Part shown: positions 1,217 to 25,442 of the stretch, piece after piece
How positions within the stretch are numbered: position 1 is the stretch's first letter
Layout: each line of letters opens with the position of its first letter
Assembly (NCBI GenBank): GCA_946482335.1
Contig: CAMLRG010000063.1
Location: 1-28,185 of the forward strand
DNA: 28,185 bases
From: an uncultured Duganella sp.
Lineage (GTDB): Bacteria > Pseudomonadota > Gammaproteobacteria > Burkholderiales > Burkholderiaceae
Direction of reading: 5' to 3'
Notes under the pieces: model-generated
Database searches by the model: none
What the model saw: the letters and a program-made list of their open reading frames with translations, nothing else
What the model was told of the DNA's origin: nothing
Made by a program: the position numbers and the translations under genes

Positions 1217-1399
1217 ATGACCAGACCACCCGACAACCTGCCAATCTACCGCGTCCTGACCGGTCCTGACGACGCAAGGTTCTGCCAGCGCGTCAGCGAA
1301 ATGCTGGAGCTTGGATACGTCCTCCACGGCTCGCCTTCCGTGACCTTCAACGGCGAAACCGTCATCGTAGCCCAGGCAATCATCTGGCCCGCGGGATAG
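1217..1399 (+). CDS. DUF1737 family small protein
   Basis: A 60-residue protein that matches the DUF1737 pattern: a 'YRVLTGPDDARFCQRVSEML' type N-terminus, then Gly-Tyr and 'HGSPSVTFNG', then a hydrophobic 'VIVAQAIIWP' end. The family is small, cytosolic and of unknown function, and its length here is typical. It begins nine bases after the hydrolase stop, so the two genes are probably one transcript. No strong Shine-Dalgarno sequence is visible, so translation may rely on coupling. It runs towards the pyrophosphohydrolase gene on the other strand, with 21 bases between the stops and no clear terminator hairpin. Confidence 0.8.
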   Translation: MTRPPDNLPIYRVLTGPDDARFCQRVSEMLELGYVLHGSPSVTFNGETVIVAQAIIWPAG

Positions 1400-1420
1400 G
1401 GGAGTGCGGCGCAGCGGCGC

Positions 1421-1750
1421 TTACGCCTCCGGGGCCGGATACTTGATGGCGTTGAGCCGGATCTTCTCCAGCGCCGCGGCATGCAGGTCGACATCGAGCT
1501 TGTCGGCGATCTGCACCAGATAGAGCAGCACGTCGGCCAGCTCGTGGCGGATGGCTTCATGCTGGCCCGCCGCCAGTTCGTCCGCGCGCCCGGTTTGCAG
1601 CCATTGGAAATGCTCGGCCAGCTCCGCCACTTCGACCGACAGCGCCATCGCCAGGTTCTTGGGCGTGTGGTACTGCTGCCAGTCGCGCGCGGCGGCGAAG
1701 GCGCGCGTGCGCTCGCGCAGGTCGTGGAGCGCATCGGCCGGCGTGCTCAC
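1421..1750 (-). CDS. MazG-like nucleotide pyrophosphohydrolase
   Basis: A 109-residue all-helical nucleotide pyrophosphohydrolase of the MazG/RS21-C6 (dCTPase) type, which removes pyrophosphate from non-canonical or excess (d)NTPs in the cytosol. The Mg-binding pattern is visible: ExxE in 'SVEVAELAEHFQW' and ExxxD in 'HELADVLLYLV', followed by 'DKLDVDL'. The 'YHTPKNLAMAL' segment before the first motif is typical of the family. The start is the GTG at 1750, whose GTGA overlaps the TGA stop of the acetyltransferase upstream, so translation is probably coupled. A longer in-frame reading runs through the acetyltransferase in the wrong frame and was not used. Confidence 0.85.
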   Translation of the reverse strand: MSTPADALHDLRERTRAFAAARDWQQYHTPKNLAMALSVEVAELAEHFQWLQTGRADELAAGQHEAIRHELADVLLYLVQIADKLDVDLHAAALEKIRLNAIKYPAPEA

Positions 1751-2269: not shown

Positions 2270-4933
2270 ATGAAATCGCTAGTCCCTCACGCCATTACCC
2301 TGGCAGTCAGTGCCCTTGTCGCCACCAGCGGCATCGCAGCCGACAGCGGCGCCCACCCGGCGCGCGCCGAGAACCCTTACTTGAGCCAGACCGATGCCGC
2401 CGCCCGTTCCGCGCGCGTGTCGAACGTCGCTTACGTCCTGGACTTCACGCTGACCGGCAAGGAAAGCTTCAGCAATTCCACCACCGTGGCCTTCGACCTG
2501 AAGGACAATGCCCAGCCGCTGACGCTCGACCTGGACAAGGCGACCATCAAGCGCCTGGTGGTCAACGGCAAGGAGGTGGCCGCGCCCCAGTACAACAACT
2601 GGTTCATCACCCTGGCCGCCGCCGACCTGCTGGCCGGCCGCAACAGCGTGACGGTGGAATTCGAGCGCCAGCACAGCACCAATGGCGAGGGCTTGCATCG
2701 CATGGTCGATCCGGTCGACGGCCGGGTCTACACGTACTCGCATTTCGAGCCGGCCGCGGCGCACCAGATGTTCGCCCTGTTCGACCAGCCCGACCTGAAG
2801 GCAACCTACCAGGTCAGCGTCACCGCGCCTGCCGACTGGACCGTGGTGTCCACCGCGCGCGAATCGAAAGTCGAGCAAGCGGCAGGCGCGCCGAACGCCC
2901 GGCGCTGGACCTTCCCGGCCTCCAAGATCCTCAGCCCCTACAACTTCTCGCTGCACGCCGGCCCGTACAAGGTGTGGGAAGACGCCAAGTCCGCCAAGTA
3001 CCCGATGCGCCTGTTCGCCCGCCAGTCGGTGGCCGACCAGGTCGATCCGGCGATCTGGTTCGAATACACCAGGCAAGGCCTGGCCTGGTTCGACGACTAT
3101 TTCGGCATCCCTTACCAGTACGGCAAATACGACCAGCTGCTGGTGCCGGACTTCCTGTACGGCGCGATGGAAAACGCCGGCGCCGTGACCTTCGCCGAGC
3201 ACTCCTTCCTGCATAAGGAAAAGATGACCGGCGCCGAAAAGCACGACCTGGCCAGCGTCATCATGCACGAAATGGCGCACCAGTGGTTCGGCGACCTGGT
3301 GACCATGCAATGGTGGAACGGCCTGTGGCTGAACGAGAGCTTCGCTTCCTTCATGGGCACCCTGGCCACCGCCGAAGCCACCGAATTCAAGGACACGGCC
3401 TGGCAGTATTTCTATTCCCAGGGCAAGGCCGGCGCTTACGTGCAGGACCAGCGCGTCACCACCCACGCGATCGAAACCCCGGTGCCGTCGACCGCCAACG
3501 CCTTCGATAATATCGACGCCATCACTTACTCCAAGGGCGCCTCCACCCTGAAGCAGCTGCGCCACCTGCTGGGCGAAGAGACTTTCCGCAAGGGTGTGCA
3601 CAACTACCTGGTCCAATACCAGTGGAAGAACGCCAGGCTGGACGACTTCATCGGCAGCCTGGCCGCTGCCGCCGGCCGCGACCTGGGCCAGTGGACCCAG
3701 GATTGGCTGTACCAGCCGGGCGTGAACACCATCACCGCCAATTACAGCTGCAAAGCCGGCAAGATCGATGCGTTCAGCCTGCAGCAGAGCGCCGTGGCGC
3801 AATTCCCGACCCTGCGCGAACAGCGCGTGCAGCTGGCCCTGATGCAAAAGAAGGGCAAGCAGCTCAAAGTGGCCAGGGTACTGCCGGTGACCTACAAGGG
3901 CGCCGCGACCGCCGTGCCGGAATTGAAAGGCGCCGTCTGCCCGGACCTGGTCTACCCGAACTACCAGGACTGGGGTTTCGTGAAAGCCAAGCTCGATGCG
4001 CGCTCCTTCGCCACCGCGCGCCAGGACGTCAGCAAGGTGGAGGACAAGCTGCTGCGCACCATGCTGTGGCACAGCATGTGGGACAACGTGCGCGACGGCG
4101 AGCTGCCGCTCAACGAATTCATCGACACCGTGCTGGCCAATGCGCCGTCCGAGCGCGACTACGTGCTGCTGGGCGACGTGCTGGGCAAGACCCACAATGC
4201 CTTGCGCTACCTGCGCACGATGGCAGCCGATGCCGCCTACACGCGCCAGGTGGAGGACAGGATCGGCAAGATGGCCTGGGAGCGCGCCAGCGCCACCGAG
4301 GGCGACTTCCAGCGCCGCTGGTTCAATACCTATCTGGCCGCTGCCGGCAATGCGGCATCGCTGGAGCGCCTGGCCGCCTTGCTGGATGGCCGCGGCAAGC
4401 TGCCGGGCCTGAAGCTGAGCCAGGAGCTGCGCTGGGACATCATCGCGCTGCTGAACCGCAAGGCCGTGCCGGGCGCCGAAGCGCGCATCGCGGCGGAACA
4501 GGCGAAGGACAAGTCCGACAGCGGCGAACTGGCGGCCGTTGCCGCGCAGGCAGCGCGCCCCGACCCGCAAGTGAAGCAGGAATGGCTGGCCAGGATCGGC
4601 GACCCGCAGACCAAGCTGCCGTTCTCGCGCCTGCGCAGCGCCATGCACGCGCTCTACCCGTCGACCCAGGTCGCGCTCAACGAGCAAAGCGCCGCCGCGC
4701 GCCTGGCGCAGCTGCCGCTGCTGGACAAGAGCGCCGGGCCGGTCTTCATGCGCGACTATGCCGGCGTGATGATCCCGGCCACCTGTACCGCGCACAGCGT
4801 GCAACGCCTGGCCGATGCGGCGGCCGCCAATCCCGGCCTGAGCGCCGGCACGCGCCGCGCGCTGCTGGTCGCGCACCAGGAGGACCAGCGTTGCGTGGCC
4901 ATCCGCAAGGCGCTGACCGTGCCGCTTGGCTAG
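2270..4933 (+). CDS. Exported M1 family zinc aminopeptidase (PepN/ERAP-like)
   Basis: An 887-residue metallo-aminopeptidase that removes N-terminal residues from peptides. The exopeptidase motif GAMENAG is at 298-304. The zinc site is HEMAH (His333, His337) with Glu356 in 'LNESFAS', exactly the HExxH-18-E spacing of family M1. An N-terminal beta saddle domain covers about 35-230, the thermolysin-like domain about 235-500, and a helical ERAP1-C-like domain the last 350 residues. Residues 1-24 form a signal peptide, so this enzyme should act in the periplasm or outside, unlike cytosolic E. coli PepN. The start at 2270 is supported by AAGGAT upstream and by the signal peptide. Its stop shares CTAG with the stop of the convergent GGDEF-EAL gene. 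Confidence 0.93.
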   Translation: MKSLVPHAITLAVSALVATSGIAADSGAHPARAENPYLSQTDAAARSARVSNVAYVLDFTLTGKESFSNSTTVAFDLKDNAQPLTLDLDKATIKRLVVNGKEVAAPQYNNWFITLAAADLLAGRNSVTVEFERQHSTNGEGLHRMVDPVDGRVYTYSHFEPAAAHQMFALFDQPDLKATYQVSVTAPADWTVVSTARESKVEQAAGAPNARRWTFPASKILSPYNFSLHAGPYKVWEDAKSAKYPMRLFARQSVADQVDPAIWFEYTRQGLAWFDDYFGIPYQYGKYDQLLVPDFLYGAMENAGAVTFAEHSFLHKEKMTGAEKHDLASVIMHEMAHQWFGDLVTMQWWNGLWLNESFASFMGTLATAEATEFKDTAWQYFYSQGKAGAYVQDQRVTTHAIETPVPSTANAFDNIDAITYSKGASTLKQLRHLLGEETFRKGVHNYLVQYQWKNARLDDFIGSLAAAAGRDLGQWTQDWLYQPGVNTITANYSCKAGKIDAFSLQQSAVAQFPTLREQRVQLALMQKKGKQLKVARVLPVTYKGAATAVPELKGAVCPDLVYPNYQDWGFVKAKLDARSFATARQDVSKVEDKLLRTMLWHSMWDNVRDGELPLNEFIDTVLANAPSERDYVLLGDVLGKTHNALRYLRTMAADAAYTRQVEDRIGKMAWERASATEGDFQRRWFNTYLAAAGNAASLERLAALLDGRGKLPGLKLSQELRWDIIALLNRKAVPGAEARIAAEQAKDKSDSGELAAVAAQAARPDPQVKQEWLARIGDPQTKLPFSRLRSAMHALYPSTQVALNEQSAAARLAQLPLLDKSAGPVFMRDYAGVMIPATCTAHSVQRLADAAAANPGLSAGTRRALLVAHQEDQRCVAIRKALTVPLG

Positions 4934-6810
4934 GAGGGGTGACGGGCGGCGCCGCGCGGCGTGAGCGCCGCCTGCGCCGCCAGCAAGTCCAGCAGCGCCG
5001 GCAACGGCGCCGGGCGGCCCAGCAGGTAGCCTTGCAGCGCATGGCAGCCGTGGGCCGCCAGGAAATCGGCCTGGGCCCGGGTCTCCACCCCTTCGGCCAC
5101 CACGCGCAAGCCCATCTGGCGCGCCATGGCCAGGATGGTCTGCACGATCACCACGTCGTTGGCGTCGTCCGGCATGTCCATGATGAAGCTGCGGTCGATC
5201 TTCAGTTCGTACAGCGGCATGCGCTTCAAATAGGCCAGGCTGGAATAGCCGGTGCCGAAATCATCGATCGAAAAGCGCACCCCCAGCGCGGCCAGTTCGT
5301 TCATGCGCGCCACGGTTTCCTCCAGCTTCTCCACCAGCAGGCCTTCGGTCACTTCCAGGATCAGCAGCGCCGGCTCCACCCCATGGTCCTGCAGCACGCC
5401 GCGCACCTGCTCAACGAAGTCGGCCTGGCGGAATTGCTGCGGGCTGACGTTGACTGACAGCGGCAGCGCCTGTCCCATGGCCGCCATGCGCTGCTGCGCC
5501 AGGCAGGCTTGCCGCAGCGCCCACATCCCGATCGGCACGATCAGCCCGGCTTCCTCCGCCAGCGGGATGAAGACGGCCGGCGACACCGCGCCACCGTCGT
5601 CGCGCTCCCAGCGCATCAGCAGTTCAGCCCCGTGCAGCCGGCCGTGGCAATCGAACTGCGGCTGGTACACCATGTGCAGCCGCTCCTGTTCGATCGCCTG
5701 CGCCAGCTCGCGTTCCAGGGTCAGGCGCCGCTCGACTTCGGCCTGCATGGCCGCTTCGAAGAAGGCGATGCCGTTGCGGCCGCCGCCCTTGGCGCGGTAC
5801 ATCGCGGTATCGGCCTCGCGCAGCAGGTCGTCGGCGCTCTGGCCGAACTTGGGCAACAGCGTCACGCCGATGCTGGCCGAACTGGCATAGTCCTGGCCGG
5901 CGATCTCGAATTCCTGCGCCAGCGCGGCGCGGATCTTTTCCGCCACCGCTTGCGCCGCATTGCCGGCGGCCGCCAGGTCGGGCGCCAAGTGTCCCAGCAG
6001 CACCACGAATTCGTCGCCGCCGATGCGCGCCACCGTGTCGCTCTTGCGCACCAGGTCGGACAGGCGCTGCGCCACCAGCCGCAGCAAATGGTCGCCGGTG
6101 GCGTGGCCGCGCGCATCGTTGATGGTCTTGAAGCGGTCCAGGTCGATGAACATCACGGCGCTGAACACTTGCTGCCGCTCGGAGCTGGCCAGCAGGCCGG
6201 CCAGCCGGTCGCGCAGCAGGCGCCGGTTCGGCAGCCCGGTCAAGGGGTCGTAGAACGCCAGCTGCTCGCCTTCGGCCAGCGAGCGCGCCAGGTGGCGCAG
6301 CAGCACGCCGCAACTCATGGTCAGCACGCCGGCGATGAACAGGTAATTCAGGGCCACTATGACGGCACGCACGACGGCATCGTCGGACAAGCCCATGGCC
6401 GCCGGGCTGGGCGGCGGCGCGAAGCCGGTCAGCACGATGGCCAGGGCGCCCGCCAGCAGCAGCCAGATGGCCGGCTTGAGCCCCATCAGCAGCGCCGCCA
6501 GGCAGGGCACGGCCAGCAGGTAGGTGTGCGCCACCGGCCCAACCTGCAGCATCAGCGAGACGCCCACCGCGAAGGCGATCAGCAGGAATTGCAGGGCGCG
6601 CGCGGGGTAGGAGACCACGCCTTGCAGGCGCCACAGGGCGGCCAGCCAGGCCAGTGCCACCACGTCGATCACGACCACGGCCCACAGCCCTTCGCGTGCC
6701 GACTGCACGATGCTCGGCAGCGCGGTGGCGATGCCCATGACCAGCACCACCTGCACCAGGCGGGCAAAGATGGATTCGCGCCAATGCGTGATCTGGTCGG
6801 GGGCTGCCAT
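4930..6810 (-). CDS. Membrane GGDEF-EAL c-di-GMP turnover protein
   Basis: A 626-residue integral membrane protein that may make or break cyclic di-GMP. Residues 15-175 hold about six hydrophobic segments, a MASE-like sensory region without a recognised name. The GGDEF domain (about 180-350) has an intact GGDEF at 264-268 and an RxxD inhibitory site, RKSD, at 255-258 with the standard five-residue spacing. The EAL domain (about 370-612) reads ELL at 396-398 with Arg400, which still fits the ExLxR signature. It also keeps 'NVSPQQF', 'EVTEG', 'DDFGTGYSSL' and 'LKIDRSF', so it may be an active phosphodiesterase. The start at 6810 follows CGGAGAACG; an in-frame ATG at 6852 would overlap the promoter. 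Confidence 0.92.
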   Translation of the reverse strand: MAAPDQITHWRESIFARLVQVVLVMGIATALPSIVQSAREGLWAVVVIDVVALAWLAALWRLQGVVSYPARALQFLLIAFAVGVSLMLQVGPVAHTYLLAVPCLAALLMGLKPAIWLLLAGALAIVLTGFAPPPSPAAMGLSDDAVVRAVIVALNYLFIAGVLTMSCGVLLRHLARSLAEGEQLAFYDPLTGLPNRRLLRDRLAGLLASSERQQVFSAVMFIDLDRFKTINDARGHATGDHLLRLVAQRLSDLVRKSDTVARIGGDEFVVLLGHLAPDLAAAGNAAQAVAEKIRAALAQEFEIAGQDYASSASIGVTLLPKFGQSADDLLREADTAMYRAKGGGRNGIAFFEAAMQAEVERRLTLERELAQAIEQERLHMVYQPQFDCHGRLHGAELLMRWERDDGGAVSPAVFIPLAEEAGLIVPIGMWALRQACLAQQRMAAMGQALPLSVNVSPQQFRQADFVEQVRGVLQDHGVEPALLILEVTEGLLVEKLEETVARMNELAALGVRFSIDDFGTGYSSLAYLKRMPLYELKIDRSFIMDMPDDANDVVIVQTILAMARQMGLRVVAEGVETRAQADFLAAHGCHALQGYLLGRPAPLPALLDLLAAQAALTPRGAARHPS

Positions 6811-6839
6811 GGTGTTCGTTCTCCGTTGTGCAGGGAACG

Positions 6840-6868
6840 ATGTTACGCGCAAACCAAACCAGTGTCAC
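6840..6868 (-). promoter_or_regulatory. Sigma-70-like promoter of the GGDEF-EAL gene
   Basis: On the minus strand GTGACA (plus 6863-6868) and TAACAT (plus 6840-6845) are 17 bases apart, matching five and four of six consensus positions. The leader would be about 25 bases and includes the ribosome binding site. The promoter lies back to back with the response regulator promoter. Confidence 0.45.
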
Positions 6869-6871
6869 CCT

Positions 6872-6880
6872 TGGTAAAAT
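6872..6880 (+). promoter_or_regulatory. Extended -10 promoter of the response regulator gene
   Basis: TGG followed by TAAAAT (6875-6880) is an extended -10 with five of six consensus bases. No -35 hexamer is recognisable at the right distance, as is common for extended -10 promoters. The start of transcription would be near 6887, about 28 bases before the TTG start codon. Confidence 0.4.
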
Positions 6881-6914
6881 TTGGCCATCGATCAAGCCTT
6901 ACTGGAGTAAAGAG

Positions 6915-7562
6915 TTGAGTACCCTGGATTTCCCGCCGCCGGCCGCGCCGATCAAGGTGCTGCTGGTGGACGACCATCCCCTGCTGCGGGCCGGCCTGGC
7001 GGACGCCATCGCCGGCCAGGGGGATATGCGGGTGGTGGCCGAAGCGGGAAACGGCCACGAAGCGGTGGCCGCCTGGCAGGCCTTCCGTCCCGACCTGGCT
7101 ATCATGGACCTGGCGATGCCGGGCATGGGCGGGCTGGAGGCGCTGGCCGCCATCCGCGCCCAGTTCCCGGCGGCGCGCATCGCCATGCTGACCACCTTCG
7201 GCGGCGACGCCCAGGTGCGGCGCGCGATGGAAGCGGGCGCCTGCGGCTTCCTGCTCAAGAGCAGCGTGCGCAAGGAGCTGGTGGACATGATCCGCGCCGT
7301 GGTCGCGGGGCAGCGCTATATCTCGCCGGAGATCGCGCAGCAGCTGGCCAGCCACCTTGGCGCTTCGCAGCTCAGCGAGCGGGAGATCGAGGTGCTGCAA
7401 TGCGCGGCGGCCGGCAATGCCAACAAGCGCATTGCCGCCCAGCTGGCCATTTCCGAGGAAACGGTGAAGGCCCATATGCGCAGCATCCTGGCCAAGCTGG
7501 GCGCCAATGACCGCACGCATGCGGTCACCATCGCCTTAAAGCGCGGCATTATCGGACTTTGA
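6915..7562 (+). CDS. NarL/FixJ-family response regulator (orphan)
   Basis: A 215-residue two-component response regulator. The receiver domain (about 13-130) has the acidic pair Asp19/Asp20, phospho-acceptor Asp65 in 'AIMDLAMPG', and the switch Lys in 'FLLKSS'. The C-terminal LuxR-type helix-turn-helix begins 'LSEREIEVLQCAAAGNANKR' and continues 'ISEETVKAHMRSILAKLGA'. The start is TTG at 6915, chosen because GGAG lies seven bases upstream and the next in-frame starts fall inside the promoter. No histidine kinase is adjacent. The propeller kinase at 13981-16986 likewise lacks a regulator and belongs to the HisKA_3 type that normally drives NarL regulators, so they may be a split pair (inference). 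The last 27 bases overlap the convergent DUF1275 gene. Confidence 0.92.
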   Translation: MSTLDFPPPAAPIKVLLVDDHPLLRAGLADAIAGQGDMRVVAEAGNGHEAVAAWQAFRPDLAIMDLAMPGMGGLEALAAIRAQFPAARIAMLTTFGGDAQVRRAMEAGACGFLLKSSVRKELVDMIRAVVAGQRYISPEIAQQLASHLGASQLSEREIEVLQCAAAGNANKRIAAQLAISEETVKAHMRSILAKLGANDRTHAVTIALKRGIIGL

Positions 7563-8201
7563 TCCGGGCGCCCCGGCCGCGCCAGGCGCCGCGGCCGGGG
7601 CGGGCTGCGGCAGTGCGGCCAGCACGGCCAGCAATGCCACCGCCGGCAGCAGCCCGAACCCCATGCCCCAGCCGGAGGCCAGCGCACCGCCCACGCAACC
7701 GAGGGCGAAGGCCAGCACGCCGCCGCCCAGCGCCGCCAGGGCGGGCCGCTGGGCCCCTCCCGCGCGGTCCAGCGCATCGATCACCAGCTGCGTGACGTTG
7801 CCGGTCATGACGGTGCTGGCCGGCAGCTTGGCCAGCAGCAGCTTGCCGTAGCCGTTCTGGGCGCCCATGGCGGCGGCGCACAGCAGGCCGGCCGCCATGT
7901 CCCAGCGCGCGCCGGCCGCCGCGGCCAGCATCAGCGCCGCCTGCAGCAGGTGGGCCGAGCGCAAGGCATCGTCGCCGGCGCGCTGGCGCCGGCGCACCAG
8001 GGCGCGCACCGCCACCACCCCGGCCACGAAGGCGGGGAAGGCCAGCAGCTTCAACAGCACGTCATTGCCCGGCGCCACCACTTCGCGTCCCAGCAGCACG
8101 AAGTTGCCCGTCACGTGGGCGGTGAACAGCCCGTGCAGGACGATGAAGCCGAGGGTATCGACGTAGCCGGCCAAAAAACTCAGGGTTGTTCCGCGTGCCA
8201 T
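7536..8201 (-). CDS. DUF1275 (YoaK-like) membrane protein
   Basis: A 221-residue inner membrane protein of the DUF1275/YoaK family, with about six hydrophobic segments. The family hallmark 'AGYVDTLGFI...FTAHVTGNFV' is near the N-terminus and 'GAQNGYGKLLL...VMTGNVTQL' lies in the middle. Function is unproven; members are suspected transporters. The ATG at 8201 follows GGGAGG and lies 22 bases inside the end of the DoxX gene, so it is the last gene of the seven-gene minus-strand operon. Its 3' end overlaps the response regulator gene by 27 bases tail to tail, leaving no room for an intergenic terminator. Confidence 0.85.
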   Translation of the reverse strand: MARGTTLSFLAGYVDTLGFIVLHGLFTAHVTGNFVLLGREVVAPGNDVLLKLLAFPAFVAGVVAVRALVRRRQRAGDDALRSAHLLQAALMLAAAAGARWDMAAGLLCAAAMGAQNGYGKLLLAKLPASTVMTGNVTQLVIDALDRAGGAQRPALAALGGGVLAFALGCVGGALASGWGMGFGLLPAVALLAVLAALPQPAPAAAPGAAGAPGSKSDNAAL

Positions 8202-8635
8202 AAGCCTCCCTTGTTTGCCAGGTCATGCCAGGCCACCAGCAGGAAGCCGCCGGCCAGGCCCAGGTGCTCGTAAAAACTGTTGGCGGCCATGAAGCGTTCC
8301 GGCCCCGCCAGCTCCCAATAGCGGTTGGCGATGAAGCTGGCCGCCACCGTGAACAGGGCCAGCCAGGCCGCGCCCAGCCAGCGCAGGCGGCCCGTCAGCA
8401 CCATGGCCGCCGCCCCCAGTTCGCCGGCGATGACGGCCGCCGCCAGCGGCGCCGCCGGCTGCAGCCCGAAGTGCCGCATTTCGCCGACCGCGCCGCCGAA
8501 ATCGAGCAGCTTGTTCAAGCCGCCCTGCAGGTAGGCGGCGCACAGCAGGGCCAGGGCCAGCCAGTGCAGGGCGCGCATGCCGGCGCCGGGGCGTCCGGTG
8601 TGCAGGCGCGCGCCGCCCGGGATGAGCGGCGCCAT
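8180..8635 (-). CDS. DoxX family membrane protein
   Basis: A 151-residue protein with four predicted membrane helices, matching the DoxX family: 'YLQGGLNKLLDFGGAVGEM' after the first helix, then 'AAVIAGELGAAAMVLTG', then a helix and a final 'NSFYEHLGLAGGFLLVAW'. DoxX-type proteins are inner membrane proteins often found in oxidative and electrophile stress operons; their biochemical role is largely open. The ATG at 8635 is one base after the TGA of the amidohydrolase, which suggests coupled translation. An internal ATG at 8578, just before the first helix, is an alternative start. The end overlaps DUF1275 by 22 bases. Confidence 0.85.
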   Translation of the reverse strand: MAPLIPGGARLHTGRPGAGMRALHWLALALLCAAYLQGGLNKLLDFGGAVGEMRHFGLQPAAPLAAAVIAGELGAAAMVLTGRLRWLGAAWLALFTVAASFIANRYWELAGPERFMAANSFYEHLGLAGGFLLVAWHDLANKGGLWHAEQP

Positions 8636-8636
8636 G

Positions 8637-10550
8637 TCACACCGCCCAGCAGGAGCAGCCCAGCGCGCCCCAGAACGACTTCAGGTCCGCGATGGGCAGC
8701 GAGCGCGTCCATGCCGTCGCATGCCGGTGGCCGTGCATGCCGCACTGGCTGGCGCAGCCGCAAGCCGCCGCTGCCGCCAGCGCCGCCGTCCTGGCATGTC
8801 CCGCCGGCGCGCCCTGGCCGGCGCTGGCGAGCGCGCCCGGCATCGCGCCCCACGCACCGTAGCCGCCATAGCGCCGCACCGGCGACCAGTCGGGCATGGC
8901 GGGCGGCGTGGGCGGGTCGTACTGGCCGAACGGGCCGGCGCCATACACCACTTTCCCGCCCACCACGGTGAGCAGCGAGGTGGTGTCAGCGATCTCGTCC
9001 TCCGGGCAGCGCAGGAAGTCGCGGTCCGGCACCATCAGGTCGGCCAGCTGGCCCACGGCGATGCGGCCCTTCTTGCCCTCCTCGTTGGAGAACCAGGTCA
9101 CGTTCTCGGTCCACATGCGCAGCGCCGCTTCGCGGTCCAGCAGGTTGCGCTGCGGGTAGAGCCGCGTGCCGCCCACCGTGCGCCCGGTGGTCAGCCAGGA
9201 CAGCGAAACCCAGGGGTTGTACGACGCCACGCGGGTGGCATCGGTGCCGGCCGACACCTTGACGCCGGATTCCAGCAGATACTTCACCGGCGGCGTCGCC
9301 TCGGCCGCCGCCGCGCCGTAGCGCTCGACGAAGTATTCGCCCTGGTACGCCATGCGGTGCTGTACCGCCACCCCGCCGCCCAGCGCCGCGATGCGGTCGA
9401 TCGATTGCGGCGAAATGGTTTCCGCATGGTCGAAGAACCAGTGCAGCCCGTCCAGCGGCATGTCGCGGTTGACCTTCTCGAACACGTCCAGCGCGCGCGA
9501 AATGGTCTCGTCGTAGGTGGCGTGCATGCGCCACGGCCAGCGGTTCTGCACCAGCACCCGTACCACGCCCTCCAGGTCGTCCTCCATATTGGCCGGCATG
9601 TCGGGGCGCGGCTGGCGGAAGTCCTCGAAGTCGGCGGCCGAGAAGGTCAGCATCTCGCCCGCGCCATTGTGGCGGAAGTAGTCGTCCCCTTGCTGGTACT
9701 TGCTGTGCGCCGCCCAGTTGAGGAAATCCTCCTTCTCCTGTTTCGGCTTTTGGGTGAACAGGTTGTAGGCCAGGCGCACCGTCAGCTGGCCGGCGTCGGC
9801 CAGTTGCTGGATCACCTGGTAATCCTCGGGATAATTCTGGTTGCCGCCGCCCGCGTCCAGCGCACCCGTCACGCCCAGGCGGTTCAGTTCGCGCATGAAG
9901 TGGCGGGTGGAGTTGAGCTGGTATTCCGGCGGCAGTTTCGGCCCCTTGGCCAGGGTCGCGTACAGGATGGTCGCGTTGGGCTTGGCCAGCAGCAGCCCGG
10001 TGGGATTGCCCGCGCCATCGCGCAGGATCTGCCCGCCCGGCGGTTCCGGTGTGTCGCGGTCGTAGCCGACGGCCCGCAGCGCCGCGCCGTTCAGCAGGGC
10101 GCGGTCGTACAGGTGCAGGATGAATACCGGCGTGTCGGGCGCCGCCGCGTTCAGCTCCTCGATGGTCGGCAGGCGTTTCTCTACGAACTGGTGTTCGGTA
10201 AAGCCGCCCACCACGCGCACCCATTGCGGCGCCGGCGTGACCGCCACCTGGGCGCGCAGCATGGCCATGGCGTCGGCCAGCGACCGCACGCCATCCCAGC
10301 GCAGTTCCATGTTGAAGTTCAGGCCACCGCGGATCAGGTGCAGGTGGTTGTCGATCAGGCCGGGCAGCACGCGCCGGCCCTGCAGGTCGATCACGCGGGT
10401 TTGCGGACCCGCCAGGGGCAGGATGTCGCGCGCTTGGCCGACGTGGGAAAAGCGGCCGCTGCTCACGGCGACCGCCCCGGCCTCGGGCTGGCCCTTGTCC
10501 AGCGTGGTGAAGCGGCCGTTATGGAGTATCAGCTCCGGTGCAGCAGTCAT
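8637..10550 (-). CDS. YtcJ-like amidohydrolase (Amidohydro_3) with Cys/His tail
   Basis: A 637-residue metal-dependent amidohydrolase of the YtcJ/Amidohydro_3 type, probably cleaving C-N bonds in an unknown substrate. The metal-binding 'LIDNHLHL' gives His69 and His71. Further conserved elements are 'FFDHAETIS', 'VQHRMAYQGE' and the late Asp in 'GTDATRVASYNPW'. No signal peptide is seen. After the barrel comes an unusual tail with Cys597, Cys599, Cys603, His606, His608, His610 and a final C-x-C (632, 634), which looks like an extra metal or redox site. The start at 10550 follows AAGGAGGAC, and its ATGA overlaps the stop of the XapX gene. Confidence 0.88.
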   Translation of the reverse strand: MTAAPELILHNGRFTTLDKGQPEAGAVAVSSGRFSHVGQARDILPLAGPQTRVIDLQGRRVLPGLIDNHLHLIRGGLNFNMELRWDGVRSLADAMAMLRAQVAVTPAPQWVRVVGGFTEHQFVEKRLPTIEELNAAAPDTPVFILHLYDRALLNGAALRAVGYDRDTPEPPGGQILRDGAGNPTGLLLAKPNATILYATLAKGPKLPPEYQLNSTRHFMRELNRLGVTGALDAGGGNQNYPEDYQVIQQLADAGQLTVRLAYNLFTQKPKQEKEDFLNWAAHSKYQQGDDYFRHNGAGEMLTFSAADFEDFRQPRPDMPANMEDDLEGVVRVLVQNRWPWRMHATYDETISRALDVFEKVNRDMPLDGLHWFFDHAETISPQSIDRIAALGGGVAVQHRMAYQGEYFVERYGAAAAEATPPVKYLLESGVKVSAGTDATRVASYNPWVSLSWLTTGRTVGGTRLYPQRNLLDREAALRMWTENVTWFSNEEGKKGRIAVGQLADLMVPDRDFLRCPEDEIADTTSLLTVVGGKVVYGAGPFGQYDPPTPPAMPDWSPVRRYGGYGAWGAMPGALASAGQGAPAGHARTAALAAAAACGCASQCGMHGHRHATAWTRSLPIADLKSFWGALGCSCWAV

Positions 10551-10804
10551 TGCTTGTCCTCCTTGGTGCTGGCGCAGGGCAGTTCGCCGAAACAATGCGG
10601 CTTGACCTGTCCCTGCAGCCAGGATACCTGCCGGTCCTTCGGTTCCAGCCACTGGCGCACCAGCGGCGGCACCTGTTCTCCCAGCAGGATGCCGAGCAGC
10701 CCCACCAGCGCCACCACGGGCGGCGCCGGCGAGCGCACGTTCAGCACGCCGTACAGGATGCCGGCCAGCAGGCCGGCGCCCAGCGAGAGAAGATAGATCT
10801 TCAC
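10547..10804 (-). CDS. XapX domain (DUF1427) small membrane protein
   Basis: An 85-residue protein with two hydrophobic segments: 'IYLLSLGAGLLAGILYGVL' and 'VVALVGLLGILLGEQVPP'. This is the XapX/DUF1427 pattern, including 'RSPAPPVVALVGLLGI'. The family is small, membrane-bound and uncharacterised. Beyond the domain the tail contains 'KPHCFGELPCAS', one His and two Cys, echoing the Cys/His tail of the amidohydrolase encoded next. The start is GTG at 10804, preceded by GGAAGG; its GTGA overlaps the YcaC-like gene's stop. Its own stop overlaps the amidohydrolase ATG. It is thus coupled on both sides. Confidence 0.85.
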   Translation of the reverse strand: MKIYLLSLGAGLLAGILYGVLNVRSPAPPVVALVGLLGILLGEQVPPLVRQWLEPKDRQVSWLQGQVKPHCFGELPCASTKEDKQ

Positions 10805-11457
10805 TGGCCTTCCTTGGCGTGGAACATGGTCTGCGCGTAAATGATACCCAGGCCGTAGGCGCCGCCGTATTTCTTGGCGATGCCGGTGGTCATTTCATAG
10901 GTGTTGGTACGCGCCCAGTCGCGCTGCAGTTCCAGCAGGTATTGCAGCGAGGTCATCGGACGTGCGCCAGCCTGCACCATGCGGTCCATGGCGCGCTCAT
11001 GCGCTTCGGCCGACACGTCGCCGCAGGCGTCGGCGATCACGTACACCTCGAAGCCTTGGTCCAGCGCCGACAGTGCCGGGCCGACGATGCAGACGCCGGT
11101 CCACAGGCCGGCCAGCACGATGCGCTTCTTGCCGATGGCATTCACGCGGCGGATCACGTTTTCGTCTTCCCAGGTGTTCATCGAAGTGCGGTCGGTCACT
11201 TCGGCACCGGGGAAGGCGGCCTTGATCTCGTCGAACACCGGGCCGGAGAAGCTCTTCTCGGCCACGCTGGTGATGATGGTCGAGACGTCGAAGCCGGCCG
11301 CGGCGTGCGCCACCAGGGCCGCATTGCTGCGCAGCTGGATGGCGTCGATCGAGTGGGTGGCGAACGCCATCTGCGACTGGTGGTCGATCATGATCAGGGT
11401 ATGGTCTTGCGGCGACAGCAGCATGGAGCCCGGGGTGGCTTTGGCGGTGATGGTCAT
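10801..11457 (-). CDS. Isochorismatase-fold cysteine hydrolase (YcaC-like)
   Basis: A 218-residue hydrolase of the isochorismatase superfamily, YcaC group. The catalytic triad is visible as Asp25 ('MIDHQ'), Lys68 ('AEKSF') and Cys123 ('TGVCIVGP'), which is the normal order and spacing. The substrate of YcaC-type enzymes is not established. No signal peptide is seen, so it is cytosolic. The ATG at 11457 is preceded by GAAAGGAAAAC and lies 22 bases after the catalase stop. It overlaps the GTG of the XapX gene by four bases. The order YcaC-like, XapX, amidohydrolase, all with overlapping stops and starts, suggests one pathway or complex. Confidence 0.9.
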   Translation of the reverse strand: MTITAKATPGSMLLSPQDHTLIMIDHQSQMAFATHSIDAIQLRSNAALVAHAAAGFDVSTIITSVAEKSFSGPVFDEIKAAFPGAEVTDRTSMNTWEDENVIRRVNAIGKKRIVLAGLWTGVCIVGPALSALDQGFEVYVIADACGDVSAEAHERAMDRMVQAGARPMTSLQYLLELQRDWARTNTYEMTTGIAKKYGGAYGLGIIYAQTMFHAKEGQ

Positions 11458-11479
11458 TTTGTTTTCCTTTCAGGGTTGA

Positions 11480-12925
11480 TTACCAAAGTGGTCGTAATTT
11501 GTCGAGCGCGGCGGCGACGCCGGCGCCATAGGCTTCATCAGCCTTGTTGCAGTTTTCGATGTGGCGCTGCTGGATGTGCAGCGGCACGCCGGCCAGGGAG
11601 CGCGCCGTGTTGTCGAACAGGGCCTGGCGCTGCTGCTCGTCCATCAGGCGGAACAGGGCGCGCGGCTGGCTGTAGTAGTCGTCGTCGGCGCGGTGGTTCC
11701 AGCGCATGGCGGCGCCCTCCAGGGCCAGCGGCGGCTCGGCGTAGGCGGCTTGTTCCTGCCATTCGCCTTTGGAATTGGGCTCGTAGCCGATGCTGCCGCC
11801 CTGGTTGCCGTCGACGCGCATGGCGCCGTCGCGGTGGTAGCTGTGGAAAGGACAGCGCGGTGTGTTGACCGGGATGGCATGGTGGTTCACGCCCAGGCGG
11901 TAGCGCTGGGCATCCCCATAGGCGAACAGGCGCGATTGCAGCATGCGGTCGGGCGAGAAGCCGATGCCCGGCACCACATTGGCCGGCGTGAAGGCGGCCT
12001 GTTCGACGTCGGCGTGGTAGTTGTCCGGATTGCGGTTCAACTCCAGCACGCCTACTTCATGCAGCGGGAATTCCTTGTGCGGCCAGACCTTGGTCAGGTC
12101 GAAGGGATTGAAAGCGGCCTGCGCTGCCTGCTGCTCCGTCATCAGCTGCACCTTCAGCGTCCAGCGCGGGTAGTCGCCGCGCTCGATGGCTTCGAACAGG
12201 TCGCGCTGCGAGGATTCGCGGTCCTTCGCGATCAGCTCCGCCGCCTCGGCATCGGTGAGGTTGACGATGCCCTGCTGGCTGATGAAATGGAACTTGACCC
12301 AGTGCCGCTCGCCGGCGCCGTTGAGGAAGCTGAAGGTGTGGCTGCCGAAGCCGTGCATGTGGCGGTAGGAAGCCGGGATGCCGCGCTCGCTCATCACGAT
12401 GGTGACTTGGTGCAGCGCCTCGGGCAGCAGGGTCCAGAAGTCCCAGTTGTTTTCCGCGCTGCGCAGGTTGCTGCGCGGGTCGCGCTTGACGGCGTGGTTC
12501 AGGTCCGGGAACTTCAGCGGGTCGCGCATGAAGAAGACCGGCGTGTTGTTGCCCACCACGTCCCAGTTGCCCTGCTCGGTGTAGAACTTGACGGCGAAGC
12601 CGCGGATGTCGCGCTCGGCGTCGGCTGCGCCGCGCTCACCGGCCACGGTGGAAAAGCGCGCGAACACCTCGGTCTTCTTGCCTACGGCGCCGAACAGGGC
12701 GGCCTTGGTGTAGCGCGTGATGTCGTGCGTCACGGTGAAGCTGCCGAAGGCGCCCGAGCCCTTGGCGTGCATGCGCCGCTCCGGGATCACTTCGCGGTGG
12801 AAGTGGGCCAGCTTTTCCAGGTGCCATACGTCCTGCAGCAGCATGGGGCCGCGCGGGCCCGCCGTTTCCACGTTCTGGTTGTCGGCGACCGGTGCGCCGG
12901 CCGCCGTGGTCAGTTTGCGCTCCAT
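11480..12925 (-). CDS. katA: Monofunctional heme catalase (small subunit type)
   Basis: A 481-residue catalase that turns hydrogen peroxide into water and oxygen. Distal His53 lies in '[12 protein letters not shown]', distal Asn126 in '[10 protein letters not shown]', 73 residues apart as in bovine catalase, and the proximal heme Tyr is in '[14 protein letters not shown]'. The length fits the small-subunit clade. No signal peptide is seen, so it is probably cytosolic. The ATG at 12925 follows the hydrolase stop by four bases, and its ribosome binding site AAGGG lies within the last codons of that hydrolase. It is the second gene of the seven-gene operon. The symbol is by family resemblance. 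Confidence 0.95.
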
Positions 12926-12929
12926 GGCT

Positions 12930-13889
12930 TCAGCCCTTGATGAATGCCAGCAGGTCGGCGTTCAGCTTGTCCTTGTGGGTGTCGGCCAGGCCGTGCGGCG
13001 CGCCCGGGTAGACCACCAGCTTGGCGTTCTTCAGCAGCTTGGCCGAGGCATGGGCCGAGGCGCCGATCGGCACGATCTGGTCGTCGTCGCCATGCAGCAC
13101 CAGCACCGGGATGTCGATCTTCTTCAGGTCGGCGGTGAAGTCGGTTTCCGAGAACGCCTTGATGGAGTCGTAAGTATTCTTGTGGCCGCCCATCATGCCC
13201 TGCATCCACCAGGCATTGATGATGCCTTGCGAAGGCTTGGCGCCGGGGCGGTTGTAGCCGTAGAAGGGACCGGAGGCGATGTCCAGGTAGAGCTGGGAAC
13301 GGTCCTTCAGCGAGCCGGCGCGGATGCCGTCGAACACTTCGATCGGCAAGCCGCCCGGGTTGGCCGGGGTTTTCAGCATCAGCGGCGGCACGGCGGAAAT
13401 CAGGCCGGCCTTGGCCACGCGCTTGCTGCCGTGGCGGCCCAGGTAGCGCGCCACTTCGCCGCCGCCGGTGGAAAAGCCGAACAGCACGGCATTTTTCACG
13501 TCCAGCTTGTCCAGCAGCTGCGCCAGGTCGTCGGCGTAGTGGTCCATATCGTTGCCGTCCCACGGCTGGCTGGAGCGGCCGTGGCCGCGGCGGTCGTGCG
13601 CGATGGTGCGGTAGCCGTGGTCGGCCAGGAACAGCATCTGCGATTCCCAGCTGTCGGAGTTGAGCGGCCAGCCATGGCTGAAGACGACGACCGGGCCGTT
13701 GCGCGGGCCCCAGTCCTTGTAATAGATCTCCACTCCGTCGCGGGTGGTGAAGGTGCCGGAGGTGCGGCCGGCGCCGCCCTTGGCGGGCGCCGGCGCCGCG
13801 CTGGCGGTGAGGGAGGAACCTGCGGCGACGGCGGCGGTGGCTGCGCCCAACAGGACGTTGCGGCGGCGCTTGCTGATCGGGGATGACAT
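12930..13889 (-). CDS. Exported alpha/beta hydrolase (cofactor-free haloperoxidase type)
   Basis: A 319-residue alpha/beta hydrolase of the non-heme chloroperoxidase/esterase group. The oxyanion motif is '[11 protein letters not shown]', the nucleophile is Ser140 in '[13 protein letters not shown]', the acid is within Asp268-270 in 'HGDDDQIVP', and His299 lies in 'GAPHGLAD'. In vitro such proteins can show perhydrolase and haloperoxidase activity; the physiological reaction is usually an esterase or lactonase. The N-terminus '[18 protein letters not shown]' resembles a Tat signal, so it is probably exported, unlike many cytosolic relatives. The start at 13889 was chosen for the signal sequence. 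It heads the seven-gene minus-strand operon, four bases before catalase. Confidence 0.9.
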
Positions 13890-13980
13890 GGTGGTGGCCT
13901 TTCTTTCTTGTGGGTGGATGGCACTTGAAAGGATAGCCAGCGGGCGGCCGCCGCAAATCGCCCATACGGGTGCGTGGCGC
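13890..13980 (-). promoter_or_regulatory. Probable promoter region of the seven-gene redox operon
   Basis: These 91 bases separate the kinase stop from the first gene of the operon and are the only sizeable gap upstream of it. On the minus strand TTGCGG followed 15 bases later by TATCCT is a weak promoter candidate. Farther upstream, CGCCCATACGGGTGCG at 13960-13975 (plus strand) has a CCC-N4-GGG core that could bind a dimeric regulator. No strong intrinsic terminator for the kinase gene is visible. Confidence 0.35.
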
Positions 13981-16900
13981 CTACCTCTTTTGGGGGAGGC
14001 TTGGCGGCCGCGGTGGTGCGCCGGGCAGCCAGCGCCGCAGCCGGGCCAGCCAGCTCGCTTCGCGCCGCTCGACAAAGGCCAGTTGCGCCGGCAGTTGCAG
14101 GCGTACGGTGGTGCCGCCGCCGGCCGGCGACAGCACGGTGCAGCTGGCGCCGATGGACGCGGCCCGCTCGCGCATGCCGACCAGGCCGAAGTGGCCCGGC
14201 CGCCCGGCCGCCGCCAATGCCTCGCCCACGCCGCAGCCATCGTCGTGCACGTCGAGCCGGAACCAGTCGGCGCCGTAATCGAGCAGCAGCTCGACGCGCC
14301 TTGCCTGGGCATGGCGGGCGGCATTGAACAGCGCTTCGCGCGCGATCGACAGTACGTCCTCGTGCACCCGCGGCGGCATGGCGCGCGGGTTGCCGCAGAT
14401 CGCGACGTGGAAGCGTTCATGCAACAGCACCGCGCCGTACTGGCGCAGCGATTGCGCCAATTCTTCCGCTTCGCCGGTGGCGCGCAAGTCCAGGATGTAG
14501 TTGCGGCCCTCGGCCATCAGCTGGTCGGCCAGCTCCAGCGTCTGCTCGAGCTTGGCCTTTTCCTCGCTGCCCGCTGCCAGCCGCGCCGCCTGGCGGTCGA
14601 AGAACATGATCAGGCCCTGCACGCTTTGCAGCAGGGTGTCGTGCAGGCCCCGCGCGATGCGGGCGCGTTCGGCCAGGCGTTCGTGCAGCAAGTCCTGCAT
14701 GCGCGCGGTCAGCTGGCGCACGCGCAGCGCGTACAGCGCGGCCAGCGCCAGGATGCCAGCCGCCGCCAGCAGGGCGGTGAACCATGGCGTCTGGGTGAAG
14801 GTGGGCGGGATCTCGAGATGCAGCGTGGCGCCGTCGCCGTTCCATACGCCATCCTCGTTCGACGCCACCACGCGGAAACGGTAATGCCCCGGCTGCAGGT
14901 TGGTATAGAAGGCTTCGCGCCGTCCCTGCACGTCCTGCCAGCCGGCGTCCACCCCTTCCAGCATGTAGCTGAAGCGCACCCGTTCCGGCATCGACAGGGT
15001 GAGCGCGGTGAAGGCGATCGCCACGTCCTTGCTGCCTTTGGGCAGGCGCACTTGCGGCAAGGGCAGGTAGGAGGCGCCGCCCGAACGCAGGGCGCGGATC
15101 TGTACTTCGGGCGCCAGCCGGTTGCGTGCGATGTGGCCCGGATCGATGCTGGCGACGTCGCTGGCGGTGGAGAACCATAGCCTGCCGTCGCTGGCCTGTA
15201 CCAGCGAGGGCAGGGGACGGAACTGCTCCGCGCCGCCCACCAGGCCATCCTGCGCATCGAAGTGCTCGAAGCGCGGCGCGTAGCCCGACCCGGCCGTCAG
15301 CAGGCGCTCCACTTCCTGCGCGGCGATGCGCGTGATGCCATCGACCCCGTGCAGCCATAATTCCCCCTGCGGCGTGCGCGCCATGCCCGAAATGCCGCGC
15401 AGCTGGGCATTGACGGCGTGGAAGCCGGCGCCGTCGAACCAGCCCAGGCCGTATTCGCCGCCGGCCCACACCAGCGTGCCGTCGGCCAGCAGCGACTGCA
15501 CATTGCCCAGCTCGATGCCGTCGCTTGCGCCGTACACCTGCGCCTTGCCCTGTTCGATCACGGCCACGCGGTTGCGCGGGTAGGCGACCCAGATGCGGCC
15601 GCGGCTATCGGTGGCCAGCGCCGGCGCCATCCCCTCCGGCAGGCCGGCCACGCCGCCATCCTTGGTCCAGCGCTGGCCGTCGGCAGTGAACAAGCCTTTG
15701 CGCGAGATGGAAAGCCACATGCGGCCGCTGGTGTCGAGCGTCATGGCTTGCACGTCGTGCTGGGCGTATTCGGGCGGATGCGGGAACCAGGTCATCAGCC
15801 CGGACGGCGCGCGCCGCCAGCGTTCATTGCTGTTGCCGAACCATAGCGCCCCGTCCGGCGCGCGGTAGCCGGCCGTCATGAAATTGGCTTCGCGCCGCAG
15901 CTGCTCGCCGGTGCTGCTGTAGCTGTGGACACCGCCGGCCTGGTCGCTGATCACCACCTTGCCGTCGCTGTCGGCCACCATGCCAGGATGGTCCATGGGC
16001 TGGGCGGTGGACAGGATGCGCAGCCGGTTGCGGCGCAGCCGGTCCAGGCCGGCCGAGGTGCCGACCCAGACATTGCCTTCCCGGTCTTCGAACCAGGTTT
16101 GCGGCAGGGCGCCGCTGATGCCGTTTTCGCGCGTCAGCTTCTGTCCCGCAGCGGTGGCGACGCCGGGCGTGGCGCGTTCCAGTGCGTCGCCATTCAACAG
16201 CCACATGGTGCCGTTGCGGTCGAAGTGGATGCCATTGGCCGTCACCGCGGGTCGCGGCGCCGGCTTGCCGCGCGGCGCTTCCGGCAGCACGCGGTAGCCG
16301 TGGCGGATGCCGTCGGTGGCCCAAATGGTGCCGTCCGGCCCCTCAGCCATCGCCATCAGGTCCAGGTGGGGCCAGGCGCGGCGGAAGCGCTGGCCGTCGC
16401 CGTCGCGCCAATAGGCGCCGCCCTGCACCGACACCCATTGCCGCCCGCTGCGGCTGAACAGCACCTGGCGCACCGGCCCGGCCGGCAAGCCGCTGTCCTG
16501 CGTCACCTGCGTAAAGCGCGCGGCGCCCGGCTTGAGCTGCGCCAGGCCGCCGCCGACGCATGCCCAGATGCTGCCATCGGGACCTTCGGTCAGGCTCATC
16601 ACGCCGGCCGGCGGCAAGCCTTGCGCCGGGCCGAACTCGCGCACCTTGCCGCCCACCAGGGCCGTGATGCCGCCGAAACGGTGGCCGATCCACAAGCTGC
16701 CGTCGCGCGTGGCCAGCAAGCCCACCGTGCTGGGCGACTGCAGGCGGTGCCCGCCGAGCGCCTCGACGCGCTCGAACGTGGCGCCGTCGAAGCGGTGCAA
16801 GCCGCCCGGCGAGGAGATCCACAGCCAGCCATCCCTGGTCTGGGCGAACTTGACGACGTCGCTGGGGGCGCCGTGCAGGCGGGTCCAGGCGGTGTGGGTG

Positions 16901-16986
16901 TAATCGGCCAGCAGGCGTGGGGATGCGGCTTGCGCGCCCAGGCCCGCCGCAAACAGGAGGGCGGCAATCAGGAAACGGGGGGACAT
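13981..16986 (-). CDS. Propeller-type sensor histidine kinase (HisKA_3), orphan
   Basis: A 1001-residue sensor kinase. Residues 1-20 form a signal peptide. About 25-650 hold two-component-regulator propeller repeats ('[19 protein letters not shown]', '[14 protein letters not shown]', '[13 protein letters not shown]' and more). Next comes a Y_Y_Y immunoglobulin-like domain ('[19 protein letters not shown]...[12 protein letters not shown]'), one membrane helix, and a cytosolic HisKA_3 domain with phospho-acceptor His782 in '[10 protein letters not shown]'. The ATPase domain has Asn888 in '[10 protein letters not shown]' and Asp915 in 'HDDGCGVG'. It senses a periplasmic signal and should phosphorylate a NarL-type regulator; none is adjacent, but one lies at 6915-7562. 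TACACT six bases before the ATG suggests its own leaderless promoter. Confidence 0.93.
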
Positions 16987-23399: not shown

Positions 23400-24104
23400 T
23401 TAACTCCGTGCGGGAATTTTCAAACCGCGCGCCACCGCGGGGCGTGCCAGGAAGCTGGCCAGCACACGGCGCACGTTGCTGAACTTGTCGAAGCCCACCA
23501 GCTCACCGGCGCCGTAGTATTCCACCAGGTTGCGCACCCACGGGAAGATCGCGATGTCGGCGATGGTGTACTGCCCGCCCATTACCCACTCGCGGCCCTG
23601 CAGGCGCTGGTCCAGCACGCCGAGCAGGCGCGCCGATTCGGCGAGATAGCGGTCGCGCGGGCGCTTGTCTTCATACTCCCTGCCGGCGAATTTGTGGAAG
23701 AAGCCCACCTGGCCGAACATCGGGCCGATGCCGCCCATCTGGAACATCAGCCACTGGATGGTTTCGTAGCGCGCAGCCGCATCCTGCGGCAGCAGCTGGC
23801 CGGTCTTTTCCGCCAGGTAGATCAGGATGGCGCCGGACTCGAACAGCGGCAGCGCTTTGCCGCCAGGGCCGTCGGGGTCGATGATGGCCGGGATCTTGTT
23901 GTTCGGGTTCAGCGACAGGAATGCCGGCGACATCTGGTCGTTGCTCTCGAAGTCGACCAGGTGCGGCTCATATGGCAGACCGGTTTCCTCCAGCATGATC
24001 GACACCTTCACGCCGTTCGGCGTGGGCAGCGAATACAGTTGCAGGCGTTCGGGATGTCGGGCGGGCCATTTGGCGTGGATGGGGAAATCGGCGATTCCGG
24101 TCAT
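23400..24104 (-). CDS. Glutathione transferase, Nu-class-like (YghU/YfcG type)
   Basis: A protein of 234 residues (242 if a TTG at 24128 is used). The thioredoxin-like N-terminal domain has 'LYSLPTPNGVKVSIMLEETGLPYEPHLVDF', the TPNG signature of YfcG/YghU-type transferases that reduce disulfides or peroxides with glutathione. It continues with 'SLNPNNKIPAIIDPDGPGGK' and 'LFESGAILIYLAEKTGQLLP', the cis-Pro and Glu-Ser glutathione-binding elements. The C-terminal helical domain includes 'QVGFFHKFA' and 'GGQYTIADIAIFPWVRN'. It is cytosolic. The start at 24104 was preferred because CATAAT at 24137-24142 then gives a normal leader; neither start has a strong Shine-Dalgarno sequence. Confidence 0.9.
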   Translation of the reverse strand: MTGIADFPIHAKWPARHPERLQLYSLPTPNGVKVSIMLEETGLPYEPHLVDFESNDQMSPAFLSLNPNNKIPAIIDPDGPGGKALPLFESGAILIYLAEKTGQLLPQDAAARYETIQWLMFQMGGIGPMFGQVGFFHKFAGREYEDKRPRDRYLAESARLLGVLDQRLQGREWVMGGQYTIADIAIFPWVRNLVEYYGAGELVGFDKFSNVRRVLASFLARPAVARGLKIPARS

Positions 24105-24136
24105 GCGCAAACTTTCGAGGTTGGACAATGGCCACG

Positions 24137-25420: not shown

Positions 25421-25442
25421 CCCACCACACCAAGGAGAAACC

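Follow-up and report, generated by a model that had tools for sequence, protein, structure and literature searches.

The stretch of DNA analysed here (the window) comprises 28,185 nucleotides of contig CAMLRG010000063.1 (assembly GCA_946482335.1) from an uncultured Duganella sp. and carries, entirely on the minus strand, a seven-gene operon that contains a four-gene core recurring in many soil and plant-associated bacteria. In window coordinates (used below unless another record is named), the genes encode an alpha/beta hydrolase of the cofactor-free haloperoxidase/arylesterase group with a twin-arginine translocation (Tat)-type leader (AbH; 12930..13889), a haem catalase of the small-subunit type (11480..12925), the four core proteins, and a DUF1275 membrane protein (7536..8201). 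The core consists of a YcaC-like isochorismatase-fold cysteine hydrolase (10801..11457), the small hydrophobic protein XapX/DUF1427 (10547..10804, with a GTG start codon), a YtcJ-like metal-dependent amidohydrolase (Ami; 8637..10550) and a DoxX-family membrane protein (8180..8635). The sequence-only reading had described seven overlapping minus-strand genes of these families; Pfam agrees (Abhydrolase_1, 119.8 bits; Catalase, 628.8; Isochorismatase, 91.6; DUF1427, 120.6; Amidohydro_3, 444.3; DoxX, 52.4; DUF1275, 104.1), and recomputation returned all six junctions as described: gaps of 4 bases (AbH/catalase) and 22 bases (catalase/YcaC-like), overlaps of 4 bases at both YcaC-like/XapX and XapX/Ami, a 1-base gap (Ami/DoxX) and a 22-base overlap (DoxX/DUF1275). 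XapX is above both of its cut-offs (Pfam, 120.6 against 27.1 bits; NCBIfam TIGR03510, 64.5 against 27.8), and the closest solved structure to the catalase is 2isa (E 1e-256). Third-position GC is 86-90% in every operon frame, the hydrolase figure being taken on a longer open reading frame (ORF; 12930-14420). Promoter and terminator scans gave signals no commoner than in shuffled sequence.

Relatives were fetched by similarity to Ami, as the best 80 of 578 confirmed matches; the sample is therefore not random, Ami is present in it by construction, the locus profiles were built from the same 80 loci, and the core-order criterion permits an intervening gene. In 71 of the 77 loci that extend 2.6 kb or more upstream, XapX lies at most 900 bases upstream of Ami on the same strand; in 69 of them a YcaC-family gene lies within those 2.6 kb, and both are found in 64. 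DoxX is downstream of Ami in 64 of the 75 loci that extend 1.6 kb or more on that side. The full order YcaC-like, XapX, Ami, DoxX is kept in 53 of the 72 loci with enough flanking sequence on either side of Ami. These loci represent three classes of Proteobacteria and 27 of 40 genus labels, including Burkholderia, Variovorax, Dyella, Lysobacter, Rhizobium, Bradyrhizobium, Caulobacter and Roseomonas. The sequence-only reading had anticipated this order in relatives and had taken the operon for a single functional unit, a proposal borne out by the conservation of order and content. The other genes are less constant: within 10 kb of the core, AbH is found in 41/80 loci, DUF1275 in 30/80 and catalase in 1/80, and all three shift place or drop out between loci, as might be expected of packing by chance or for convenience of expression with no common function. 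That explanation is nevertheless very improbable, because the core order has held across three classes and the set has stayed together after rearrangement.

A control independent of Ami was obtained by searching whole genomes for XapX (PF07235). Within the family of genome G001, XapX exceeds the cut-off in 17/97 genomes, and a YcaC-like gene, Ami or both lie within 1.5 kb at 15 of 17 sites. Within the phylum of genome G003, it does so in 16/299 genomes, at 17 sites once tandem matches are merged, 9 of which have such a partner (counted by eye); six of the eight XapX sites without a partner score below 70 bits, and two (L112, L114) are strong XapX matches. Both genomes were picked for carrying the core, and removing their own sites leaves 14/16 and 7/15. 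Linkage is looser in Pseudomonadaceae, where Ami is present in 229/398 genomes at E 1e-150: among 30 fetched loci, XapX lies within 1.5 kb of Ami at 7 and a YcaC-family match at 24. Because of these counts the YcaC-like hydrolase and Ami are the broader pair, with XapX and DoxX as frequent partners. Ami is also found on 384 of 72,556 plasmid records (E 1e-50), 212 of them labelled Rhizobium, Sinorhizobium, Ensifer or Agrobacterium; tblastn found XapX on a single plasmid record, the short query being insensitive, and an annotated XapX/DUF1427 gene lies near Ami in 5 of 7 fetched plasmid regions. One Escherichia albertii plasmid (NZ_CP126911.1, 77128-78102) matches the middle of Ami alone (query residues 129-453, 80% identity). 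Some Burkholderia and Paraburkholderia loci (L032, L036, L039, L042, L045, L050, L056) possibly hold two XapX genes, several of them showing, by tblastn, an oppositely oriented match ahead of the YcaC-like gene and, by profile, one immediately ahead of Ami; a tandem pair of XapX/DUF1427 genes is seen on a Pantoea plasmid (L167, 5462-5940), by a YcaC-like hydrolase and divergent from Ami-DoxX-MFS.

The closest layouts come from Burkholderiales. Locus L176 has the window arrangement minus catalase: a kinase, AbH, YcaC-like, XapX, Ami, DoxX, DUF1275 and a convergent regulator. L173 has AbH, catalase, YcaC-like, XapX, Ami, DoxX, DUF1275 and the convergent regulator, and past these a kinase of lower similarity (33%), and in L177 the gene set is rearranged, with no DoxX match and a more distant catalase (44%). 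Catalase is near the set in L001, L173, L174, L175 and L177, recurs in several Burkholderiales loci fetched separately, and is read as a lineage-specific addition to the core. This bears on the type of stress involved, for which the sequence-only reading had offered peroxide, hypohalous acid or electrophiles. A defence centred on catalase and the haloperoxidase-fold hydrolase and directed at hydrogen peroxide or hypohalous acid would suit the presence in the window operon of catalase beside a chloroperoxidase-F-like hydrolase, the five loci just named and the Dps gene found within 5 kb in 6/80 loci. Hydrolases of the haloperoxidase fold, however, act mainly as esterases, and catalase is missing both from 79 of the 80 loci and from the otherwise window-like L176; because catalase is lineage-specific, we consider this defence improbable as the common theme, several Burkholderiales loci notwithstanding. 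The electrophile part of the proposal holds up better, and we favour detoxification of electrophilic or quinone-like compounds over defence against peroxide or hypohalous acid.

Two flanking genes, absent from the sequence-only reading, suggest how the operon may be controlled. A propeller histidine kinase of 1001 aa (13981..16986, minus strand; Reg_prop repeats, Y_Y_Y, HisKA_3, HATPase_c) lies 91 bases upstream of the operon on the same strand, and a convergent NarL-type response regulator (6840..7562, plus strand; Response_reg and GerE) overlaps DUF1275 by 27 bases at its 3' end; its start is uncertain, since the ORF opens with GTG at 6828 and has an ATG at 6840. Kinase relatives occur in 8/80 loci and in L173, L176 and L177, the convergent regulator occurs in L001, L173 and L176, and regulator relatives (>180 bits, within 5 kb) occur in 9/80 loci (Pseudoduganella, Rugamonas, Undibacterium, Lysobacter, Caulobacter, two in Dyella and two in Luteibacter). 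Kinase and regulator thus recur with the core, yet in a minority of loci; because of these low counts, the two-component control predicted from their recurrence would be a trait of some lineages, with LysR and AraC genes near the core elsewhere. A MASE11-GGDEF-EAL cyclic-di-GMP protein (4930-6852, minus strand) lies downstream of the response regulator and is present beyond the regulator in L001 too.

In Ami, which exceeds the Pfam cut-off for Amidohydro_3 and has the HxH...H...H...D metal-ligand pattern, the ligands H69, H71, H343, H375 and D437 do not vary across 39 sequences, the most distant at 25% identity. A structural model of its body gives an amidohydrolase barrel whose nearest solved folds, 3igh and 3icj, are both uncharacterised; model confidence (predicted local distance difference test, pLDDT) was 59.7 at first and 79.7 in a second model with four distant relatives added, the C-terminal tail staying below 50 in both. 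That tail (residues 597-637, encoded by 8637..8762) lies outside Pfam families and keeps C599, C603, H606, H608, H610, C632 and C634 in 111/111 sequences, many of them closely related; position 597 is C or H, and the intervening positions vary. It is seen in Pantoea and Acinetobacter plasmid relatives, partially in a Metabacillus relative, and is missing from Roseobacter and Sphingomonas relatives. Searched alone, the tail matched zero Pfam families at E up to 10, and its best solved match had E 0.95. The simplest reading of the Cys/His set is a putative metal site, and this tail of the Ami subfamily is undescribed so far. A Tat-type leader is found by motif on Ami in 28/80 loci and in 24/30 Pseudomonadaceae loci, and many of these genes hold a second ATG right before the domain; the window Ami has no Tat leader by eye, its upstream frame entering XapX with no leader-like stretch. 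The YcaC-like protein keeps D25, R90 and C123, which are invariant in 9 aligned sequences and align to the P. aeruginosa YcaC structure 4wgf, whose Asp-Arg-Cys active site is reported as D19, R84 and C118 (PMC4519933). It scores 131.1 bits against a cut-off of 310 for the YcaC equivalog (NF041461), and by this profile is YcaC-like only, not YcaC proper. As for AbH, the sequence-only reading of an exported haloperoxidase-type hydrolase agrees with a predicted Tat-type leader, RRRNVLLG followed by a hydrophobic stretch in the translation, and with chloroperoxidase F as closest solved structure (E 1e-144); a script called such leaders in 21 of 35 AbH relatives, one of which (L002) looks spurious by eye.

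What the core does is suggested largely by its neighbours in other lineages, the toxin link being drawn from relatives because the window itself has no MhqO-type dioxygenase, pirin, quinone reductase or MFS exporter. Counting loci of the 80 with a match within 5 kb of Ami against those with one at 5-10 kb, we found enrichment close to the core of MhqO-type VOC dioxygenases (20 against 3), pirin (20 against 5), MFS_3 transporters (41 against 4), LysR (35 against 11) and AraC regulators (25 against 11), as well as AbH (32 against 12) and DUF1275 (29 against 1); ChaC (7 against 2) and RidA (4 against 3) are rarer, and nitroreductase was found near the core in 0/80 loci. The Rhizobium VOC protein has MhqO (E 2e-75) and a dichlorohydroquinone dioxygenase (E 1e-39) as best solved matches, and Rhizobium and Sinorhizobium plasmids carry a LysR gene followed by VOC, hydrolase, XapX, amidohydrolase, DoxX and MFS genes. 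On pRL12 of Rhizobium johnstonii 3841 the four core genes are RL_RS35190 (hydrolase), RL_RS35185 (XapX), RL_RS35180 (Ami) and RL_RS35175 (DoxX). Pseudomonas oryzagri has the order LysR, pirin, YcaC-like, XapX, Ami, MFS_3 (L068). Core-like genes far from the proteobacterial loci lie on a Metabacillus plasmid (Bacillota; L166, 611-9050), with an MhqD-like esterase that at 202 bits falls short of its cut-off (325), two ring-cleaving dioxygenases, YcaC, a second hydrolase, a monooxygenase, Ami and a nitroreductase; Pantoea and Roseobacter plasmid neighbourhoods also enter the detoxification argument. The same survey offers material for a different view, that of a catabolic operon in which the cell would take up an amide or ester, aromatic or of plant origin, and use the two C-N hydrolases and the exported esterase to channel it into central metabolism. 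An alginate-export-type porin and a secreted VOC protein lie within 5 kb in 28/80 and 27/80 loci, and in none at 5-10 kb; among fold relatives of Ami whose substrates are known, the nearest are catabolic amidohydrolases and deaminases; and propeller kinases often sense nutrients. MFS_3, pirin, Dps and MhqO/MhqD-type neighbours nonetheless suit detoxification better, and the window operon has no ring-opening or coenzyme A-linked pathway genes, which leaves a catabolic role as the main rival, unlikely but less so than peroxide defence.

Published work on Pseudomonas aeruginosa points the same way as the neighbours that suit detoxification. PA2698 is probably the YcaC-like counterpart and PA2699 the Ami counterpart, a link made through the locus L149. 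In passages of PMC2796861, BexR is a bistable LysR regulator that raises PA2698 7-fold together with PA1202-PA1205, the authors suggesting small-molecule detoxification for the PA1202 operon; the direction of the BexR effect is worded oppositely in PMC4051601. PA1202-PA1205 take in YcaC, a putative quinone reductase and pirin (PMC2796861, PMC4519933, PMC4051601), and the closest characterised homologue of PA1204 is a quinone oxidoreductase (PMC4051601). PA2698 and PA1202 rise jointly in two other settings (PMC5521831, PMC2110884), PA2698, PA2699 and PA1202 are all up together in another (PMC8402870), and PA2698 is listed among the chromatin immunoprecipitation targets of the zinc-response regulator CzcR (PMC13209446). 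The active-site cysteine of PA1202, which is YcaC, bore a propionamide adduct from acrylamide (PMC4519933). Isothiocyanates, suggested by the isochorismatase-like nature of SaxB, were considered as substrates and dropped. SaxB is called uncharacterised in PMC12903958.

We therefore propose, at close to an even chance, that the operon serves an envelope-linked detoxification of reactive small molecules (electrophilic, quinone-like, aromatic amides or imides) met in soil and on plants, because the core order is kept, the XapX control agrees, MhqO-type, pirin, MFS_3 and LysR genes lie nearby, PA2698 belongs to the BexR regulon, the YcaC cysteine takes up an acrylamide adduct and the gene set is kept after rearrangement (L173, L176, L177). 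Gene content, order, co-conservation, leader motifs and active-site residues are read directly from the loci, and beyond them we infer a substrate class, a regulation, enzymatic steps and membrane roles. In the periplasm, the propeller kinase would detect the toxin, or an effect of it, and activate the operon through the convergent response regulator. C-N bonds in the toxin or in products derived from it would be opened by two enzymes, the YcaC-like cysteine hydrolase and the metal-dependent Ami, while the putatively exported AbH could attack esters or acyl groups beyond the cytoplasm. A membrane part made up of DoxX, XapX and DUF1275 may either be coupled to the membrane redox pool or transport the compound, and catalase would remove hydrogen peroxide from redox-cycling phenols. 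Several observations weigh against this proposal: (i), the low XapX count beside Ami in Pseudomonadaceae, which speaks against a fixed unit; (ii), the close relative L001 has no DoxX match; (iii), MhqO-type neighbours are confined to a quarter of the loci, mainly Rhizobiales, and the window has none of the four toxin-related genes listed above; (iv), the porin and secreted VOC neighbours are equally compatible with nutrient uptake; (v), PA2699 appeared in the exoproteome under phosphate starvation alone, not after electrophile stress (passages of PMC4899797).

It is also possible, if more doubtful than detoxification as such, that the four core proteins together make up a so far undescribed enzyme system of the envelope, with Ami in two compartments, a second, C-terminal Cys/His metal site in Ami, and XapX and DoxX as membrane partners. 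As part of that proposal, Ami would be cytoplasmic or Tat-exported via start-codon choice or according to lineage. The YtcJ-like PA2699 is reported as a Tat substrate when made from an upstream start codon, an internal start being used too when it is expressed from a plasmid (PMC4899797, PMC6085387). If true, such an envelope system would provide a first function for DUF1427/XapX, described in 2005 as a domain with no known function that occurred, in the genomes of the time, solely in plant-associated proteobacteria (PMC554113), and a joint function for YcaC-type hydrolases, for which solved structures existed in 2015 with the function not known (PMC4519933). Among open-licence PubMed Central papers, no literature on this gene set (XapX/DUF1427, YcaC, amidohydrolase, DoxX) was found. 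The operon ties XapX/DUF1427 and YcaC to a metal amidohydrolase, to DoxX and, in relatives, to hydroquinone-cleaving enzymes; this narrows the substrate search and gives a deletable genetic unit, whose inducer might be reached through the kinase and regulator on its flanks.

Elsewhere in the window, an extracytoplasmic function (ECF) sigma factor, a Ferritin_2/DUF4439 protein and a cytochrome c lie in a row as overlapping ORFs (24830-26434, plus strand), and a glutathione S-transferase is encoded at 23400-24128 (minus strand). ARAGORN calls a tRNA-Val(tac) of odd length, 92 bases, at 1389-1480 (plus strand), which may be false, as Rfam sees no tRNA there; the Rfam scan gave no match above gathering scores.

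Compared with known systems, the nearest published pair is met through L149, whose Ami leader is identical to the published PA2699 leader at 31 of 35 positions. Relative to the window, L149 has an Ami of 63% and a YcaC-like protein of 51% identity, with XapX present; its Ami gene is divergent from the YcaC-like and XapX genes and carries a Tat leader, unlike the leaderless window Ami. The mhqNOP/mhqED quinone-resistance genes of Bacillus subtilis resemble the window in combining a DoxX-family protein with a hydrolase, and MhqO- or MhqD-type genes stand beside the core in some relatives, whereas the window operon, going by the genes scanned, holds neither a ring-cleaving dioxygenase, MhqO-type included, nor a nitroreductase; the YcaC-like, XapX and Ami families are not known to be members of mhq operons. 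The Pyrococcus metal-dependent hydrolases 3igh and 3icj share about 20% identity with Ami, the Cys/His tail lying outside the match. Chloroperoxidase F and the arylesterases (1a8s) align with AbH across its full mature length, while AbH differs by its Tat-type leader and operon setting, its activity being predicted. Finally, YcaC of Escherichia coli (1yac) and of P. aeruginosa (PA1202, 4wgf) belongs to the same fold family as the window YcaC-like hydrolase, with the Asp-Arg-Cys set aligned.

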